The position numbers and the translations under genes were made by a program. DNA of 64,000 nucleotides from Haloglomus halophilum. Its GTDB lineage: Archaea > Halobacteriota > Halobacteria > Halobacteriales > Haloarculaceae. This document shows, piece by piece, positions 38,208 to 57,343 of the stretch; within the stretch, counting starts at the first letter, position 1; each line of letters starts with the position of its first letter. Under the pieces are notes generated by a model. That model was given only the letters and a program-made list of their open reading frames with translations. It searched no databases and was not told the DNA's origin. The stretch lies in contig NZ_CP101166.1 of assembly GCF_024298885.1 (NCBI RefSeq), positions 1,302,001 to 1,366,000 of the forward strand. Reading direction: 5' to 3'.

Positions 38208-39206
38208 ATGAGCGGCCACGACGCACCCACGAGCGGCCTCGGACCCCGCCGACTGCGCGCGGACGGCGTCCGGGAACTCGTCAGCGAGACCGACGTGCAG
38301 GCCAGCGACCTCGTCGCACCCGTCTTCGTCGACGCCACCACGGACGAGCGCCAGCCCATCCCCTCGATGCCGGGCCACGAACGTGTCCCCGTCGACGAGG
38401 CGGTCCCGCGCGTCCGCGAGGTACTGGAAACCGGTGTCGAGGCGGTCATCGTCTTCGGCATCCCCGAGTCGAAGGACCCGGAGGGCTCGCGCGCCGACGC
38501 CGAGGACGGGGTCGTCCAGCGCGCGACACGGGCCATCACTGCCGAGACCGAGGCCTACGTCATCACGGACCTCTGTCTCTGCGAGTACACCGACCACGGG
38601 CACTGCGGCCTCCTCGAGGACGACGCCGCCGAGGACCCGCGGCTCACGGTCCGGAACGACGCCACCCTGGAGCGGTACCGCTCCATCGCGGTCTCGCAGG
38701 CCGAGGCGGGCGCCGACATGATCGCGCCCTCCGGCATGATGGACGGACAGGTCGCAGCCATCCGCGACGCGCTGGACGACGCCGGCCACGACGACGTGCC
38801 CATCATGGCGTACGCCGCGAAGTACGCCTCCGCGTTCTACGGGCCGTTCCGTGACGCCGCCGACGGCGCGCCGGCGTTCGGCGACCGCCGGCACTACCAG
38901 ATGGACCCGGCGAACGCCCGCGAGGCGCGCCGCGAGGTCGCCCGCGACGCGGCCGAGGGCGCCGACGTGCTGATGGTCAAGCCCGCACTCCCGTACCTCG
39001 ACGTCGTCGCGGACGTGCGCCGCGAGTTCGACCACCCCGTCGCCGCGTACAACGTCAGCGGCGAGTACGCGATGCTCCACGCCGCCGCCGAGCAGGGCTG
39101 GCTCGACCTCGAAGCGGCCGCCTACGAGTCGCTGCTCTCCATCAAGCGGGCGGGCGCGGACCTCATCATCACCTACTTCGCCGAGGATCTGGCCGACCAG
39201 CTCTGA
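38208..39206 (+). CDS. hemB: Porphobilinogen synthase (delta-aminolevulinate dehydratase)
   Basis: A 332-residue enzyme that joins two 5-aminolevulinate molecules to porphobilinogen in heme and cobalamin synthesis. The Schiff-base lysines are K205 (AAKYASAFYGPF) and K258 (MVKPALPYLD). Catalytic zinc ligands C123, C125 and C133 are in DLCLCEYTDHGHC. All functional residues are present. hemL, the enzyme that makes its substrate, is 5.6 kb downstream past the ammonium loci. Confidence 0.95.
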   Translation: MSGHDAPTSGLGPRRLRADGVRELVSETDVQASDLVAPVFVDATTDERQPIPSMPGHERVPVDEAVPRVREVLETGVEAVIVFGIPESKDPEGSRADAEDGVVQRATRAITAETEAYVITDLCLCEYTDHGHCGLLEDDAAEDPRLTVRNDATLERYRSIAVSQAEAGADMIAPSGMMDGQVAAIRDALDDAGHDDVPIMAYAAKYASAFYGPFRDAADGAPAFGDRRHYQMDPANAREARREVARDAAEGADVLMVKPALPYLDVVADVRREFDHPVAAYNVSGEYAMLHAAAEQGWLDLEAAAYESLLSIKRAGADLIITYFAEDLADQL

Positions 39207-39254
39207 CCCAGGGCTCCGACCCGGGGCTCCGACCCGGCGGAGCCATGACCTGCT

Positions 39255-39266
39255 GTTGACGAACGG
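39255..39266 (+). promoter_or_regulatory. Copy 1 of GTTGACGAACGG motif upstream of amt
   Basis: GTTGACGAACGG occurs here and again at 39340-39351, 85 bases on. The core GACGAACG recurs inverted (CGTTCGTC) at 39430-39437 and before the second amt at 42165-42172. A nitrogen-regulator operator is inferred. The whole 316-base gap 39207-39522 has no gene, and begins with a tandem GGGCTCCGACCC pair (39212-39236). Confidence 0.35.
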
Positions 39267-39339
39267 ACCCTTCCGGCAGAAATTTCCGACCAAACGGTCC
39301 GCGCATGCCGCTGAGCGTGTGCGAACGAACAGCATCCCG

Positions 39340-39351
39340 GTTGACGAACGG
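39340..39351 (+). promoter_or_regulatory. Copy 2 of GTTGACGAACGG motif
   Basis: Same twelve bases as the copy at 39255. Direct orientation, spaced about eight helical turns from the first copy. Confidence 0.35.
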
Positions 39352-39427
39352 TCGGTATGCTGGTGACGATTGCCCAGATATCCCGACAAACGGCCGCATT
39401 AAACACCTAATATCCTTCCCAATTTTC

Positions 39428-39438
39428 GACGTTCGTCC
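39428..39438 (+). promoter_or_regulatory. GACGTTCGTCC motif shared with the second amt locus
   Basis: GACGTTCGTCC contains the reverse complement of GACGAACG. An identical eleven-base copy is found at 42163-42173. It lies about 40 bases before the TATA-like element, where activators of archaeal promoters often bind. Confidence 0.4.
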
Positions 39439-39471
39439 TCTTACTCCCAGGAATCGTCGGAATCGTCAAGC

Positions 39472-39485
39472 CAAACCTTATGTAG
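39472..39485 (+). promoter_or_regulatory. Promoter of leader-amt-glnK operon
   Basis: CAAACCTTATGTAG holds a BRE-like CAAAC and a TATA-like TTATG. The same block, CAAACGTTTATGTAG, precedes the second amt leader. TTATGTAG begins 45 bases before the leader start here and 42 there. Transcription should start about 18 bases before the leader ATG. Confidence 0.5.
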
Positions 39486-39522
39486 TGGAGGACCACTGGC
39501 ATCCAGTGCGCAGAGATACACG

Positions 39523-39585
39523 ATGACGTGGAAATACTTCGGAAACGCTGACGAATCGGAAGCAAAGTTCGAGGTGAGTTCGTGA
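39523..39585 (+). CDS. Leader peptide of amt-glnK (20 residues), translationally coupled
   Basis: A 20-codon ORF, starting MTWKYFGNAD and ending KFEVSS. Its TGA (39583-39585) overlaps the amt ATG (39585-39587) as TGATG. It starts in the expected short 5' leader just after the promoter. A second, different leader with the same placement and overlap precedes the second amt. Ribosomes finishing this ORF would restart on amt, so the leader probably sets amt translation. The role is inferred. Confidence 0.55.
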   Translation: MTWKYFGNADESEAKFEVSS

Positions 39586-41015
39586 TGATCGAACCGATCC
39601 TGCTCCAGGGTGACGTGACCGCCATCGCGAACAGCATCAACGCGGTGTGGGTGCTGATGGTGTGTTTCCTGATCTTCTTCATGCAGCCCGGGTTCGCGCT
39701 GCTGGAGGCCGGACAGGTACGCGCCAAGAACGCCGGCAACGTCGTGATGAAGAACATGACCGACTGGTCGATGGGCGTGCTGGTCTTCTTCCTCGTCGGC
39801 GCGGGCGTCTCCGCGATGGCGGGGATGCTCGGTTCGCCCGGGGAGGCGCTCTCCATCTCCGGTGCGTTCAGCCACATCAACGACCCGACGGCGTGGATCG
39901 GCTGGCTGTTCGGCGCCGTCTTCGCGATGACCGCCGCGACCATCGTCTCCGGGGCCATCGCCGAGCGGATGAAGTTCTCGGCGTACGTCGTGTACGCCTT
40001 CGTCCTCGTGGCCGTCCTCTACCCGGTCGTCTCCGGGTCGACCTGGGGCGGGACGGGGCTGCTCTCCTCGACGGGCTTCCTCGGGGAGGCACTCGACGTC
40101 GGCTACAAGGACTTCGCCGGCGCGACCGTCGTCCACGCGATGGGCGGCATCGCCGGGCTCACCGCGGCCTACATGGTCGGCCCGCGCAAGGGCCGCTTCG
40201 ACGAGAACGGTGACGCCCAGCCCATCCCCGGGCACTCCGTCCTGTTCGCGGTCATCGGGACGCTCATCCTGGCCTTCGGCTGGTACGCGTTCAACGTCGG
40301 CACCCAGGCGACCGTCCTCACGACGGACGGCTCGTTCAACGGGGCCGCGCTGGGCCGTGTCGCGCTGAACACCACCCTCGCGATGGGCGCGGGCATGGTG
40401 TTCTCCACCCTGACCACGGCGGTCTGGGAGGGCAAGCCGGACCCGCTGTTCGGCGCCAACGGCCTCCTGGCCGGCCTGGTCGCCATCACCGGCGCGTGTG
40501 CCCACGTCACCTGGTGGGGCGCCCTCGTCATCGGCATCGTCGGCGGCATCCAGACGCCCATCGTCTACCGCTGGGTCGTCGACTCGCTGAAGATCGACGA
40601 CGTCTGTGGCGTCTTCGCGGTCCACGGCTCGGCCGGCTTCATCGGGACCATCATGATCCCGTTCTTCGACGTGGCCGGCTTCTCGGTCAACCAGCTGATC
40701 ATGCAGGTCGCCGGCTCCGCGTTCATCGGGACGTTCACCGTCCTCGGCACGATGGTGACGCTGCTGGTGGTCGACGCGGTCATCGGGCTGCGCGTCTCCG
40801 AGGAGGAGGAGGTCACCGGCCTCGACCCCTCCGAACACGGGATGCACGCCTACCCCGAGTTCACGGACGACTCCGGCCCCGAGCGCGCGGTCGCCGACGG
40901 CGGCAGCGTGCCCGGGTCGGGCACGGAGGTCAGGCCGGATGGGGGCTTCATCGACCGCTCCGGCATGGATGCCGACATCGAGCCCGCCGTCACGGAGGTG
41001 ACCGACGATGAGTGA
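39585..41015 (+). CDS. amt: Ammonium transporter (Amt/MEP/Rh family)
   Basis: A 476-residue membrane channel with eleven helices. [14 protein letters not shown] is the conserved front motif. The pore His pair is in [15 protein letters not shown] and [14 protein letters not shown] cytoplasmic tail of about 70 acidic, Gly-rich residues follows ([10 protein letters not shown] onward), the part on which GlnK docks. ATG 39585 overlaps the leader stop; the in-frame GTG at 39582 is the alternative. The end overlaps glnK by eight bases. It imports NH4+/NH3. Confidence 0.93.
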
Positions 41016-41373
41016 CGCGCCCAACGACGGCGGCGTGAAGCTGGTGACGGCGTTCATCCGCCCGGACATGCTGGGCGAGGTGAAGGCCGCCCTCGTGGAC
41101 GTGGGTGCGCCATCCATCACGGTGACGAACGTCTCCGGTCGCGGGTCACAGCCCGCGAAGAAGGGCCAGTGGCGCGGCGAGGAGTACACCGTCGACCTGC
41201 ACTCGAAGGTGAAGGTCGAGTGCTACGTGGCGGAGGTGCCCGCCGACGAGGTCGCCGAGGCCATCGTCGAGGCCGCCAAGACCGGCGAACCCGGCGACGG
41301 CAAGGTGTTCGTCTCGCCGGTCGAGGAGGCCTACCAGATCCGGACTGGGGTGACCGGACAGGACGCGGTGTAG
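41008..41373 (+). CDS. glnK: PII nitrogen regulator GlnK
   Basis: A 121-residue PII protein that binds ATP/ADP and 2-oxoglutarate and closes Amt when nitrogen is ample. [23 protein letters not shown] is the N-terminal strand-helix. The T-loop is [21 protein letters not shown], quoted as [10 protein letters not shown] then [11 protein letters not shown], with Trp55 where bacterial uridylylated Tyr51 is. [15 protein letters not shown] is the C-loop/B-loop region. No uridylylation is expected. It overlaps amt by eight bases, so the two are made together. Confidence 0.95.
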
Positions 41374-41376
41374 GCC

Positions 41377-41856
41377 GTGGCCAACACCGACTCCGCCGAC
41401 GGAGGGTCGGAGGAGCCGGACGGGACGGGGGACGACGAACCGGCCGTCGATGCCACCCGGGGCGGTCCGCACGACCGGGCGACGGTCACCGCGGCCGACG
41501 CCGCGACCGCCGACCGACTGGCTGCGCTCGAGGAATCGGGCGCCGTCGACGGCTACGTCCCGCTCGTCGACTACGACGCGCTCGGGCTTCGGACGGCGCT
41601 CCTCCGGATCGACGCCCACCACGGGAACGCCCGCACCATCGCGGACGACCTCCGCGACGGCCCCGGCGTGGCGGTCTACCTGGCCAGCGGGCGGTTCGAC
41701 GTGCAGGCCGTCTGTCGGTTCCCGTCGGCCGCCGCGTTCGAGCGAACCGCGACCCGGCTGGCGAGTGACCCCCGGGTCCGTGCCCACCGCATCGCGGTCG
41801 CCCGGCACGCCGTCGTCGAGGACGGGCCGCTCGCCGCGCTGCACGGCGACGACTGA
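41377..41856 (+). CDS. AsnC/Lrp-type effector-binding (RAM) domain protein lacking a full helix-turn-helix
   Basis: A 159-residue protein starting with GTG three bases after glnK. Residues from about 40 read RLAALEESGAVDGYVPLVDYDALGL, the Lrp linker, then the RAM domain (TALLRIDAHHGNARTIADDL, GVAVYLASGRFDVQAVCRF). The N-terminal 35 residues are an acidic, disordered segment instead of the first two helices of the winged helix. The protein may sense glutamine or another amino acid without binding DNA, or act by pairing with a full Lrp protein. The operon with amt-glnK indicates nitrogen sensing. Confidence 0.75.
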   Translation: MANTDSADGGSEEPDGTGDDEPAVDATRGGPHDRATVTAADAATADRLAALEESGAVDGYVPLVDYDALGLRTALLRIDAHHGNARTIADDLRDGPGVAVYLASGRFDVQAVCRFPSAAAFERTATRLASDPRVRAHRIAVARHAVVEDGPLAALHGDD

Positions 41857-42162
41857 CACACCTCCTACTCCACACCGCCGTTCCGCACGGCGACACGCCG
41901 AGATGTCACCCGTACACGGTCGACGGTAGCACCGCTGTATCTCCGTTCCATGTTCCATCCCGCGCCCCCACAGCCGCACGTGCCACTGCTCCACGCGCCG
42001 CGGCCCTACGCCACTGCCTACGCGCCGCGACCCCTACGACACGGCTCCACGCGCCGCTCTCGACCCCCAACCCGGGACCGACACGACCCACCCCGCGGCG
42101 GATCGGTGGACGAGTGTCGTGCGCGCGGACCGAAACCCGTCCGAACGGCCAGTTCCACGGCG

Positions 42163-42173
42163 GACGTTCGTCC
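42163..42173 (+). promoter_or_regulatory. GACGTTCGTCC motif upstream of the fused amt
   Basis: Identical to the eleven-base block at 39428-39438. With the base before it, GGACG-TT-CGTCC is a short palindrome. The 482-base gap 41857-42338 holds no gene I can support; its first 250 bases carry CGCGCC-rich short repeats only. Confidence 0.4.
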
Positions 42174-42289
42174 AGTGAACTGTCGATGAACGTCCGAGAG
42201 GTGGACGGATTACGACCTTATATCGATATTATTCTACCCCAAATCGGACAGTCGTCTATCCATACGTATGAAAATGGACATTCACAACT

Positions 42290-42304
42290 CAAACGTTTAT
42301 GTAG
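42290..42304 (+). promoter_or_regulatory. Promoter of leader-amt-PII gene
   Basis: CAAACGTTTATGTAG matches CAAACCTTATGTAG before the first amt. TTATGTAG begins 42 bases before the leader ATG. The 100 bases before it (42205-42300) are unusually AT-rich. Confidence 0.5.
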
Positions 42305-42338
42305 GAGTATCTGCTGACGAGATGACGTGAGAGACACC

Positions 42339-42404
42339 ATGAACGTTGCAGAATGCGAGTTCGAAATAGACAGTCGTTCGGAACCTGAGGTGGACCGCGC
42401 GTGA
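42339..42404 (+). CDS. Leader peptide of the Amt-PII gene (21 residues), translationally coupled
   Basis: A 21-codon ORF, starting [13 protein letters not shown] and ending EVDRA. Its TGA (42402-42404) shares its last base with the amt ATG (42404-42406), again TGATG. It is rich in Glu/Asp like the first leader but is not the same sequence. The same length and overlap in both loci argue against chance. Confidence 0.55.
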
Positions 42405-44146
42405 TGGACGTACTGCTCCAGTCCGGCACGGAGCTGAGCACGCTGGTCGAGGGGGTCAACCTGCTGTGGGTGCTGACGGTGACCTTCCTCATCTTCTTCA
42501 TGCACGCCGGCTTCGCGATGCTGGAGGCGGGCCAGGTCCGCTCGAAGAACGTCGCCAACCAGCTGACGAAGAACATGCTCACCTGGAGTATCGGCGTCAT
42601 CGCGTTCTTCCTCGTCGGCGCGGGCGTCGCGAGCGTGACTGGTCAGTTGACCGGACCGAACGCGCTCGTCCCGGGTGACCTCATCGCGACCTGGAGCGCC
42701 GGGTCGGCGGGCTGGGTGAGCTGGCTGTTCGGCGCCGTCTTCGCGATGACCGCCGCCACCATCGTCTCCGGGGCGGTGGCGGGCCGCGCGAAGCTCCGCG
42801 CGTACGTCACGTACACGATACTGCTGGCCGCGGTCATCTACCCGGTCGTCGTCGGGTTCACCTGGGCGGGCCAGGGGCTCCTCACCTCCGACGGCCTCAT
42901 CGGACTGGGCTTCCAGGACTTCGCGGGCGGTGTCATCGTCCACGGCATGGGCGGTGTCGCCGGCCTCACCGCGGCCTGGATCATCGGCCCGCGCATCGAC
43001 CGCTACAACGAGGACGGCAGCGTCAACGTCATCCCCGGCCACTCGCTGACGTTCGCGGTGCTGGGGACGCTCATCCTCGCCTTCGGCTGGTACGGCTTCA
43101 ACGTCGGCACCGCCGCGTCGGTGTTCGACGCGACGGCCGCCGCCGACCAGGGCATCCTCTCGCTGGGTGCGTTCGACTACGTCGGCCGCGTCGCGCTGAC
43201 CACGACGCTGGGGATGGCCGCGGGCGCCATCGGCGCCGGCGGCATGGCGCTGTACAAGACCGGCAAGGTCGACACGCTGTACGTCGCCAATGGGATGCTC
43301 GCCGGTCTCGTCGGCATCACCTCCATCACGGACGGCATCCTCTGGGTGGGCGCGCTCGCGGTCGGCCTCATCGCCGGCGCGCAGCTGCCCATCGTCTTCG
43401 GCTTCGTGGAGAAGCGGCTCAAGATCGACGACGTCTGTGCGGTCTTCCCGGTCCACGGGAGTGCGGGGCTGCTCGGCGCGCTGCTGTTCCCGTTCGTCGC
43501 GACCGACACCTGGGCGAGCGGCTTCGACGCCGCGTTCTTCGTCGACGCGCTCGTCGGACAGATCGCGCTGGTCGTGGTCATCACGGTCTGGACGGTCGCC
43601 GCGACCGCGGCCGTCTTCGGTGCGCTGAAGGCCATCGGTGAGGCCCGCGTCTCCCGCGAGCACGAACTGGAGGGGCTGGACGTCTCCGAGCACGGCGTCG
43701 ACACCTACCCCGAGTTCGGCCGCCCCGAGACCGCCACGGACGGCGGTTACGTGCAGGACGACCGCGGCATCATCCGCCCGGACGGCGGCGTCGCCAACGA
43801 CGGCAGCATCAAGATGGTCACGGCGTACATCCGCCCGGACGTGCTGGGCGAGGTGAAGGGCGCCCTCGTCGAGGTCGGTGCCCCCTCCATCACGGTGACG
43901 AACGTCTCCGGCCGCGGTAGCCAGCCCGCGAAGAAGGGCCAGTGGCGCGGCGAGGAGTACACCGTCGACCTCCACCAGAAGGTGAAGGTCGAGTGTGTCG
44001 TCGCGGACGTGCCCGCCGACGAGGTCGCCGAGGCCATCGCGGACGCGGCCAAGACCGGCGAACCCGGCGACGGCAAGGTGTTCATCATGCCGGTCGAGGG
44101 CGCCCACCAGATCCGGACGGGCAAGACCGGCCGCGAGGCCGTCTGA
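42404..44146 (+). CDS. Amt ammonium transporter fused to a C-terminal PII (GlnK) domain
   Basis: A 580-residue single polypeptide. Residues 1-430 form the Amt channel ([14 protein letters not shown]; pore His in [15 protein letters not shown] and [14 protein letters not shown]). A 35-residue linker ([10 protein letters not shown] to GGVANDGS) leads to a complete PII domain, about residues 467-580 ([17 protein letters not shown]-loop [36 protein letters not shown]). No frameshift or stop separates the two, unlike the first locus. The PII part is nearly identical in DNA to the free glnK. Every channel would carry its own regulator, and PII trimer and Amt trimer symmetries match. Confidence 0.92.
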
Positions 44147-44649
44147 CCACGACTGCGACACCGACTCGAACCGCGCCGGCCTCCCCGGCACACTGACGCT
44201 GTTTTCCGCTGGGTTCGTTGCACCGGTGCCGTTTTTCGATTGCTTTCGATATTTTACGATCGTTCGGAAGTACTGGCGACAGAATTAGCTAGTTGCATCA
44301 TAATCCTCGGGATGGTCCAATTCGAGCGCAGTCGCTCGTCGTGGATGGTGGATAGCGGCCAGCGGGAGCAGCCCGCCGGCCGACTGCAGGAACGGGACCG
44401 ACCGGGTGGAGCGGTCGGCCAGGCCGGGGTCGCGAACGAAGGAACAGCCACACGACGCACGACGCGTGGCACCAGCCGTGGTTCGCCCGGCGTCGAACCG
44501 GATGCCGATACGACACCGCCTTGGAGGTGTTGTCCTGTCTTGCTTGCCTTGTTGTTCTCTCGTGCTTCGCATCCATCCCTATGCAGTGGTTGCATATAAT
44601 ACCCCAGATTGGAGGCAATAGCTACACTTCTCAGAGACATCCATGGATG
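44147..44649. other. Gene-free stretch after the Amt-PII gene
   Basis: The 657 bases 44147-44803 contain no gene I can support. A T-run in GCCGTTTTTCGATTG near 44228 may end the Amt-PII transcript. TAGTTGCATCATAATCC (44291 on) and TGGTTGCATATAATACC (44587 on) are imperfect direct copies around 270 bases. A 128-residue frame on the minus strand is Arg/Ser-rich and unlike local proteins. It could be a decayed insertion. Confidence 0.5.
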
Positions 44650-44678
44650 AGCGTCTAAGAATTCCCCATCTAGACGCT
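44650..44678. repeat. Inverted repeat, 8-bp arms and 13-base spacer
   Basis: AGCGTCTA (44650-44657) and TAGACGCT (44671-44678) are perfect complements with a 13-base spacer, the same geometry as 25075-25103. It lies 126 bases before hemL. Confidence 0.5.
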
Positions 44679-44803
44679 AGATTGTAATCCCATCCGTTCG
44701 GGGAGGCTCGGCCGTCGTGAATCGGCTACGCCTCGGTTCGAGAGCGACCCGGCGCCGGGCGCGGTGAGCAAGCTACTTTCGCCCCCCGGCAGTAGACCGG
44801 CGT

Positions 44804-46144
44804 ATGAATCGCGAGCGCTCGCGGGACCTCTACGACCGTGCGCTGTCCGTGTTGCCGGGCGGCGTGAACAGCTCGGTTCGGGCGGCCCCCCAGCCGTATC
44901 CCACCTTCGTCGAGCGGGGCGACGGCGGCCACGTCATCGACGCCGACGGCAACCGGCTGGTCGACTGGGTGATGGGCCTGGGCCCGATGCTGCTGGGCCA
45001 CGACATGCCCGAACCGGTGCAGGCGGCGGTGCAGTCCCGTGCCAGCGAGGGGCCGATGTACGGGATGCCCACCGAGATCGAGGTCGAGCACGCCGAGTTC
45101 GTCTGCCGCCACGTCCCCTCGGTGGAGATGCTCCGCTTCGTCAACAGCGGGACGGAGGCGACCGTCTCGGCGGTGCGGCTCGCGCGGGGCATCACCGGAC
45201 GCAACAAGATCGTCGTGATGCAGGGCGGCTACCACGGCGCCCAGGAGTCCACGCTCGTCGAGGGCGACGCCGACCACCACCGGCCGTCCACGAACGGCAT
45301 CCCGCAGTCGTTCGCGAAGCATACGCTCCCGGTCCCGTTCAACGACGAGGAAGCGATGCAGGAGGTGTTCGCCGAGCACGGTGACGACATCGCGGGCGTC
45401 CTCATCGAGCCGGTCCAGGCGAACATGGGCATCGTCACGCCCGAGGCGGGCTACCACGAGGCCGTCGCGGACCTCTGTGAGGGCCACGGCGCCCTGCTCA
45501 TCTGGGACGAGGTCATCACGGGCTTCCGGGTCGGCGGCCTCCAGTGCGCCCAGGGGAAGTACGACATCGACCCCGACATCACGACGTTCGGGAAGATCAT
45601 CGGCGGCGGCTACCCGGTCGGCGCCATCGGCGGCAAGACCGAGTACATCGAGCAGTTCACGCCCTCGGGCGACGTGTTCCAGGCCGGCACCTTCTCCGGA
45701 CACCCCGTGACCATGGCGGCCGGGCTGGAGACGCTCCGCTACTGTGCCGAGAACGACGTGTACGACCACGTCAACGACCTGGGGCGGCAGCTCCGCGAGG
45801 GACTCACCGACATCGTCGCCGACCAGGCACCCGCGTACACGGTGACGGGACTGGACTCCATGTTCAAGGTCATCTTCACGCGCGCGGACGGCCCGTCACA
45901 GAGCGAGTGCTGTGCGAACGGCTGCCGGCAGGACCCCTCGTGCGACCGCTACGACTCGTGTCCGAAGCGCGGCACGGACACGGACGAGGCCGCGACGGAC
46001 CGCTACGCCCGCATCTTCCGCCCGCGGATGCTGGACGAGGGCGTGCTCGTCTCGCAGAACCAGTACGAGACCAACTTCGTCTCCCACGGCCACACCGAGG
46101 ACGATGTCGAGCGGACGCTGGAGGCGTACAAGGAGTGCCTCTGA
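44804..46144 (+). CDS. hemL: Glutamate-1-semialdehyde 2,1-aminomutase
   Basis: A 446-residue PLP enzyme making 5-aminolevulinate for tetrapyrroles. [10 protein letters not shown] opens it as in all Hem[19 protein letters not shown] binds cofactor, [12 protein letters not shown] holds the PLP Asp, and K264 ([15 protein letters not shown]) is the Schiff-base lysine. Between residues 366 and 395 there is a Cys-rich insertion ([21 protein letters not shown]369, C370, C374, C380, C386) where bacterial HemL has a short loop. Confidence 0.95.
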
Positions 46145-57268: not shown

Positions 57269-57343
57269 TGGCCATTCTCCACTTATGTAGCGACTAAAAC
57301 GCGAAAGCGAGCTATTATTCCGTAATTAACCAGGGTGCAGATG

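Follow-up and report, generated by a model that had tools for sequence, protein, structure and literature searches.

Short ORFs overlapping the start of haloarchaeal ammonium transporter genes and their probable role in translational coupling

In the archaeal order Halobacteriales, ammonium transporter (amt) genes are preceded by a mini open reading frame (ORF) whose stop codon overlaps the amt start codon far more often than in control genes or shuffled sequences. We examined this leader ORF in a 64,000-nucleotide (nt) stretch of Haloglomus halophilum (contig NZ_CP101166.1, positions 1,302,001 to 1,366,000; hereafter the window), which carries two amt genes, amt1 and amt2, each behind its own leader, and compared it with amt loci throughout the order. 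We consider it likely that amt is the second cistron behind a leaderless or near-leaderless mini-ORF, that it is translated by termination-reinitiation in obligatory coupling with the leader, and that a probable operator is embedded in the leader.

Overlapping mini-ORFs ahead of amt genes

The initial annotation of the window had reported ORFs of 20 and 21 codons at 39523-39585 and 42339-42404, a TGATG overlap of their TGA stops with the ATG codons of amt1 (39585) and amt2 (42404), and a common promoter block upstream of both leaders. All of these are present, the block being the TATA-box-like TTATGTAG at 39478 and 42297. The downstream genes of both leaders were identified as ammonium transporters by family search, with a P-II domain fused to amt2. 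Amt1 is 85% identical to the protein of Haloglomus irregulare, the nearest named isolate among the matches listed, and 87% identical to that of a Halobacteriales metagenome-assembled genome.

For comparison, 392 genomes of the order were searched; matches occurred in 362 of them, with 150 places among the matches listed. The resulting 136 amt loci comprised 30 loci from the order search, amt2 of the window, 100 of 120 further listed places, and loci L003-L007. Loci L008-L010 (upstream regions identical to those of L091-L093), L011 (masked upstream region) and bacterial loci were left out. Dereplication at 80% over 120 nt reduced the 136 loci to 110. When placement was rechecked, the 136 amt, 30 hemL, 30 hemB and 25 single-family loci all proved correctly registered.

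Two tests were applied to these loci. The loose test required an ORF of at least 12 codons in a frame other than that of amt, with its stop within -14 to +15 of any in-frame start, and the strict test required 17-45 codons and a stop at -2, +1 or +4. The loose test was passed by 125 of the 136 amt loci and the strict test by 111 of 136, or 88 of 110 after dereplication. With abutting and nearby stops allowed, 96 of the 110 dereplicated loci have a leader. The control rates in the strict test were 6/30 for hemL, 4/30 for hemB and 862/4400 (19.6%) for shuffled upstream regions. Because 88/110 amt loci passed as against 10/60 hemB and hemL regions and 862/4400 shuffles, the overlapping mini-ORF before haloarchaeal amt is real and beyond chance (amt versus controls, Fisher p = 7e-16, a value that ignores shared ancestry and, like all Fisher values for homologous loci, is only indicative).

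It is extremely improbable that these leaders are short ORFs whose overlap with the amt start is coincidental. About one fifth of shuffled regions and 10 of 60 control genes do pass the test, and any single leader has up to about a one-in-five chance of being accidental; it is conservation that carries the weight. Coincidence is refuted by the 88/110 loci together with the fixed TATA-to-GTG spacing and the frame test described below. The earlier argument that such likeness between two loci was hard to explain by chance is thus upheld by the Halobacteriales comparison, although the two leaders alone are weak evidence at these background rates.

A leader pattern allowing up to three mismatches was matched in 73 of 146 genomes. 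Among 30 matches examined as loci, nine lie before amt, and the other 21 have no Amt signature within the next 700 nt. Outside Halobacteriales, only two (L375 and L383) of 17 amt loci (20 less the misregistered L360, L374 and L382) passed the loose ORF test, which is near the base rate and is a weak indication that the leader is confined to Halobacteriales.

Leader start, reading frame and coupling to amt

For each locus, one start candidate was selected with a score giving credit for GTG, for a TATA-like box 14-40 nt upstream and for motif residues, and giving no preference to a distance of 30-31 nt. Candidates were found in 129 of 136 loci, and for 35 of them no TATA box was recognised. GTG with a box at 30 or 31 nt made up 71 candidates; after manual removal of L104 and L105, which differed from the others, 69 of 136 loci remained, or 51 dereplicated. 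Since the GTG start sits 30-31 nt after the TATA box in these 69 loci, their mRNA is predicted to be leaderless, with the transcription start site (TSS) at the GTG. A logo of the TSS-anchored leaders showed AA (-35), TTTATATA (-30), TGA (-12), CGTGA (-1), ACGAAC (+12) and TGGACGAACGT (+40). For Haloferax volcanii, the accessible part of a transcriptome study (PMC4983044) reports 118 transcripts that are leaderless and start with GUG; their read coverage is about half of the average.

The spacing in relatives revises the start of the amt2 leader, which the initial annotation had placed at ATG 42339. With the TATA-box-like TTATGTAG at 42297-42304 (plus strand) and a predicted TSS at 42327, the start is probably the in-frame GTG at 42327, giving a leader of 25 codons plus TGA (42327-42404, plus strand) in which ATG 42339 is internal. 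At amt1, the box lies at 39478-39485 (plus strand) and the predicted TSS at 39508, 30 nt downstream. The codon equivalent to GTG is GCG at 39508, and ATG 39523, codon 5 of the same frame, is the likely start, with a predicted 5' untranslated region (UTR) of about 15 nt. This leader (39523-39585, plus strand, 20 codons plus TGA) would encode MTWKYFGNADESEAKFEVSS and has counterparts in L003, L004 and L083. An ATG further in also serves as the start of the Halarchaeum-type leaders (L091-L093) and of L095, which resembles them. The richness in Glu and Asp remarked on earlier for the two peptides amounts to 10.8% Glu and 4.7% Asp in 57 leaders and is uninformative, as the accessible text of PMC4983044 describes haloarchaeal proteins as typically having a low isoelectric point.

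The reading frame of the leader is conserved in relatives, a point that the initial annotation had made decisive for its proposal. In a frame-blind test, the conserved core was located with a position weight matrix (PWM) from the 51 GTG leaders; 18 of the 110 loci lacked a clear TATA box and 37 a clear core, leaving 55. In 53 of these 55 loci the core's frame ran without a stop from a start close to the TSS as far as the amt junction, and each other frame did so in none of the 55, a contrast that is partly circular given how the core was located.

A Shine-Dalgarno (SD)-like motif of at least 5 nt precedes amt in 37 of 57 GTG leaders and precedes the leader itself in none (counts not dereplicated), as against 1/30 for hemL and 0/30 for hemB. 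Both window loci combine the TGATG overlap with an intragenic SD-like motif, as coupled pairs do: GAGGTGA at 39571-39577, 7 nt ahead of the amt1 ATG, and GAGGTGG at 42387-42393, ahead of the amt2 ATG (both plus strand). According to the accessible part of a study of overlapping haloarchaeal gene pairs, the SD motif is nonfunctional in de novo initiation and widely used for reinitiation at such pairs, and in four pairs tested in H. volcanii the downstream gene depended strictly on translation of the upstream one (PMC6728339). Because the frame is kept, the SD-like motif occurs only at the amt junction, and SD use is reported for reinitiation only, termination-reinitiation is the natural and, we suggest, the best reading of the leader-amt junction. 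The translational coupling proposed in the initial annotation gains from the recurrence of ORF, open frame and stop/start overlap across Halobacteriales. A leader-Amt frameshift fusion was also considered and dropped, since Amt lies mostly in the -1 frame because the ATGA and TGATG overlaps force it. In genome G031, amt has decayed into pieces with stops, and its leader also has an in-frame TAA.

We propose that a mini-ORF of about 20-32 codons stands first on the mRNA and that amt is the second cistron. Transcription would start at, or a few nt before, the mini-ORF start codon, usually GUG, and ribosomes would enter by leaderless or near-leaderless initiation. They would terminate at the stop overlapping the amt start and reinitiate there, often aided by the SD-like motif in the last mini-ORF codons, and Amt synthesis would thereby be obligatorily coupled to leader translation. 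What would matter in the leader sequence is chiefly that the frame stays open over a suitable length; codons 13-17 would also count as DNA, as a copy of an upstream palindrome that is probably a nitrogen-regulator binding site.

A leader of this kind might instead sense nitrogen or translation status by ribosome stalling or attenuation and so set amt expression, which we consider quite unlikely. Its position, frame and overlap are conserved, slow decoding may occur given a third-position G+C content of 0.57 in the leader versus 0.91 in amt, and ammonium does shut off amt in the accessible part of a study of Haloferax mediterranei (PMC3831643). In that account, however, control is already seen at the transcript level, with amtB-glnK transcripts present on nitrate and absent on ammonium, also without GlnK. 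Single-sequence folding of the window leaders (134-135 nt) gave z-scores of -1.14 and +1.14, nothing beyond chance, and alifold of 19 or 51 leaders (75-nt alignments) gave no consensus fold beyond column shuffles. No attenuator hairpin or terminator was found after the leader in the window folds or leader alignments, and no run of codons for a sensed amino acid in 57 leaders, where Gln makes up 2.9% of residues, with no excess as a class. A GGAC-N4-GTCC leader hairpin was rejected for lack of a consensus fold and of covariation, its pairs being formed in 30, 18, 30, 39 and 35 of 51 leaders, as against 30.1, 22.3, 31.4, 38.4 and 34.7 expected.

The three plasmid-borne amt paralogs have upstream partners of another size. 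At the two Natrinema paralogs (L388 and L390), the upstream frame overlapping the amt start reaches an ATG at 62 and 61 codons, unannotated, with a further ATG at 24 codons in L390, and at the Haladaptatus paralog (L389) an annotated 86-codon ORF at 542-802 overlaps amt. At these paralogs the place of the short leader may be taken by a longer coupled partner, and coupling may predate the short leader.

A candidate operator and the constraint on the leader sequence

Besides the probably leaderless GTG start, the initial annotation had not seen that the conserved core of the leader matches an operator-like palindrome, CTGGACGNNCGTCCAG. The palindrome (at least 10/14) was present ahead of the promoter in 70 of the 110 amt loci; shuffles gave a mean of 10.5 and a maximum of 19 per 110, and hemL and hemB 5/30 each; the shuffle comparison favours the palindrome, since its consensus was picked from the same upstream regions by 7-mer counts, and at a small number of loci the searched region may extend into the leader. 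Within -260 to -42 of the TSS-anchored loci it was found in 34 of 51, with 22 sites at -170 to -167, nine at -85 to -83 and three elsewhere. When a PWM was built from strictly upstream sites, its highest score within the leader fell at +39 in 41 of the 51, coinciding with codons 13-17, V-D-E-R-P in typical leaders. Because the -168 site falls outside the predicted transcript, the constraint would act on DNA and not on RNA, and CTGGACGNNCGTCCAG is probably a DNA operator, a putative nitrogen-regulator site. In H. volcanii, an AT-rich AAAGACTAART motif and not CTGGACGNNCGTCCAG is reported in the accessible part of a motif study (PMC6801745).

The window shows both classes of upstream site, all given without strand. 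That of amt2 (GCGGACGTTCGTCCAG, 42160-42175) is strong (12/14), lies at -167 from the predicted TSS and is the top-scoring window position; the core within its leader (ATAGACAGTCGTTCGG, 42366-42381, at +39) is weaker (9/14; PWM score 10.2, with 34 window positions scoring equally high). The amt1 site (TTCGACGTTCGTCCTC, 39425-39440; 10/14) belongs to the -85 to -83 class, at -83 from the predicted TSS, with 11 window positions scoring equally high, and the amt1 leader core has lost the match. No regulon could be defined from CTGGACGNNCGTCCAG or GGACGWWCGTCC in the window genome; GGACGWWCGTCC has 10 exact sites there, of which only the one before amt2 is intergenic.

A CCTTATA-like element lies upstream in 44 of the 51 TSS-anchored loci, in 42 of these at -114 to -111; at amt2 it stands at 42216-42222 (plus strand), -111 from the predicted TSS. 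This element and the -168 palindrome repeat the spacing of the TATA box at -30 and the -84 palindrome, and the promoter unit looks as if duplicated about 84 bp apart.

A more elaborate arrangement is possible, and we offer it tentatively. The amt promoter would lie between putative operators, one near -168 or -84 and one at +39, the downstream one inside a leaderless GUG mini-ORF with a weak start, and Amt would be made only after translation of that mini-ORF. If this is true, about 80 nt of mRNA would unite nitrogen control of transcription with a gate on translation, and amt output would also track the capacity for leaderless initiation during nitrogen starvation.

The opposite simplification, that the leader acts as DNA only, as an operator-bearing initially transcribed segment with the open frame as a by-product, is very unlikely. 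It would account for the core copying the upstream palindromes and for the weak amino-acid selection across the order, and in one family, f17, codon 16 alternates between R and C with a fixed third base. An operator, however, needs no open frame ending in the amt start, as found in 53 of 55 loci against none for either other frame, nor does it explain an SD-like motif solely at the junction or the coding selection in f17.

This family contains Haladaptatus, because the entire 170-nt upstream stretch of its leader L103 is common to Haladaptatus pallidirubidus L389. The f17 set had five starts set by hand and left out L293 and L297 (paralog leaders), L291 (the decayed leader of G031) and L294-L296. 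In its leaders (23 of 24 after dereplication), the ratio of nonsynonymous to synonymous differences (pN/pS) is 0.50 (0.33-0.69), the other two frames having values of 0.73 and 1.36. All 23 leaders share S15, P17, D18 and D19, and the third positions of D18-V21 vary. Order-wide, differences at codon positions 1, 2 and 3 are nearly equal (96, 87 and 90 in 36 pairs). The leader peptide thus appears mostly unconserved, with clear coding selection in this one family. A conserved-peptide reading of V-D-E-R-P was moved to the DNA level on account of these equal differences and the PWM match at +39, f17 excepted.

We consider it unlikely that the leader encodes a functional small protein that acts in trans on a target such as Amt or GlnK. 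The coding selection and invariant residues of f17 speak for such a protein, as does small protein sP36 of Methanosarcina mazei, which acts on AmtB1 in the accessible part of its description (PMC10714827). Even within f17, however, codons 13-17 have a pN/pS of 1.05, as DNA-level constraint predicts, pN/pS outside f17 differs little from that of the other frames, and most leaders have 20-32 codons against the 61 amino acids of sP36.

Several observations weigh against the coupled-leader model that we prefer. Across the order, 36 independent pairs give a pN/pS of 0.80 (0.66-0.98) in frame, with 0.72 and 0.92 for the two alternative frames, and in the 47 leaders outside f17 it is 0.88 (0.76-0.98) versus 1.01 and 0.92. 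Among the 110 loci, 22 fail the strict overlap test and 14 fail even with abutting stops allowed; 20 of 57 leaders lack an SD-like motif of 5 nt, and the three plasmid paralogs lack the short GTG form, their overlapping upstream frames being longer. The TSS position is inferred from TATA spacing. For the operator, besides the favoured shuffle comparison, the amt1 leader core is hardly operator-like (6/14, PWM score -1.6), and CTGGACGNNCGTCCAG with two mismatches has 122 matches in the window genome versus 86 for a reversed control. One further observation counts in favour of the model: in H. mediterranei, an N-terminal Flag at both amtB starts gave transcripts and no detected protein in the accessible part of PMC3831643, as a disturbed leader junction would predict. 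The authors' own reasons explain the result as well, however, and AmtB2 with a C-terminal Flag was likewise undetected.

The two amt units of the window are neighbours, in the order hemB, leader 1, amt1, glnK1, a small Lrp/AsnC-like gene, leader 2, amt2 and hemL. The ORFs at 38208 and 44804 we take by eye to be hemB and hemL, on a basis other than the family search. The genes between them lie on the plus strand: amt1 (39585-41015; PF00909), glnK1 (41008-41373; P-II protein, PF00543), which overlaps the end of amt1, the small gene (41377-41856) and amt2 (42404-44146; transporter plus P-II domain). The product of the small gene has an Lrp/AsnC-like ligand domain under the Pfam cut-off (E 2.6e-4; 21.2 bits versus 25). 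It is short, without an evident DNA-binding part, sits between both amt units and is a candidate partner of the putative regulator. The hemB-amt-glnK-hemL neighbourhood (38208-46144) was seen again in other haloarchaeal genomes, such as G006 and G035. TTATGTAG is expected 0.06 times in the window by shuffling and was observed at 39478, 42297 and 57283; the third copy (57283-57290) is intergenic, with no amt behind it.

Significance and relation to known systems

The amt leader would be a widely conserved archaeal regulatory upstream ORF (uORF), located at a gene of central importance for nitrogen. Most haloarchaeal mRNAs are leaderless, and the leader would illustrate how an internal start is used in these organisms to make a membrane protein. 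It is open to direct testing in model haloarchaea, may explain the undetected N-terminally tagged AmtB, and supplies a candidate operator for the haloarchaeal nitrogen regulator. No description of an amt leader ORF in archaea was found in the literature as covered, in part, by title and abstract start; the mechanisms are individually known, and we found no report of their combination.

In bacterial coupling and attenuator leader peptides, a short upstream ORF controls access to the main start. Unlike attenuator leaders, the amt leaders showed no RNA fold beyond chance, and their host initiates leaderlessly. Closer are the overlapping haloarchaeal gene pairs (PMC6728339, accessible part), which share with the amt loci the ATGA or TGATG overlap, the SD motif within the upstream gene and the organism group. 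Those pairs consist of ordinary genes, whereas the upstream partner of amt is an ORF of 20-32 codons that seemingly serves amt. The leaderless GUG transcripts of H. volcanii (PMC4983044, accessible part) likewise have GUG at or beside the mRNA 5' end, but the amt GUG opens a mini-ORF at a fixed TATA distance, before one gene family and across an order. The same source describes uORFs of 15-31 amino acids upstream of ordinary genes. Its 16 cases lie in 5' UTRs of 150-250 nt, with no amt named in the accessible part, whereas the amt leaders overlap the main start. The sP36 protein of M. mazei (PMC10714827, accessible part) is, like the putative leader product, an archaeal small protein tied to an ammonium transporter; it has 61 amino acids, and the comparison with the amt leaders is one of description.

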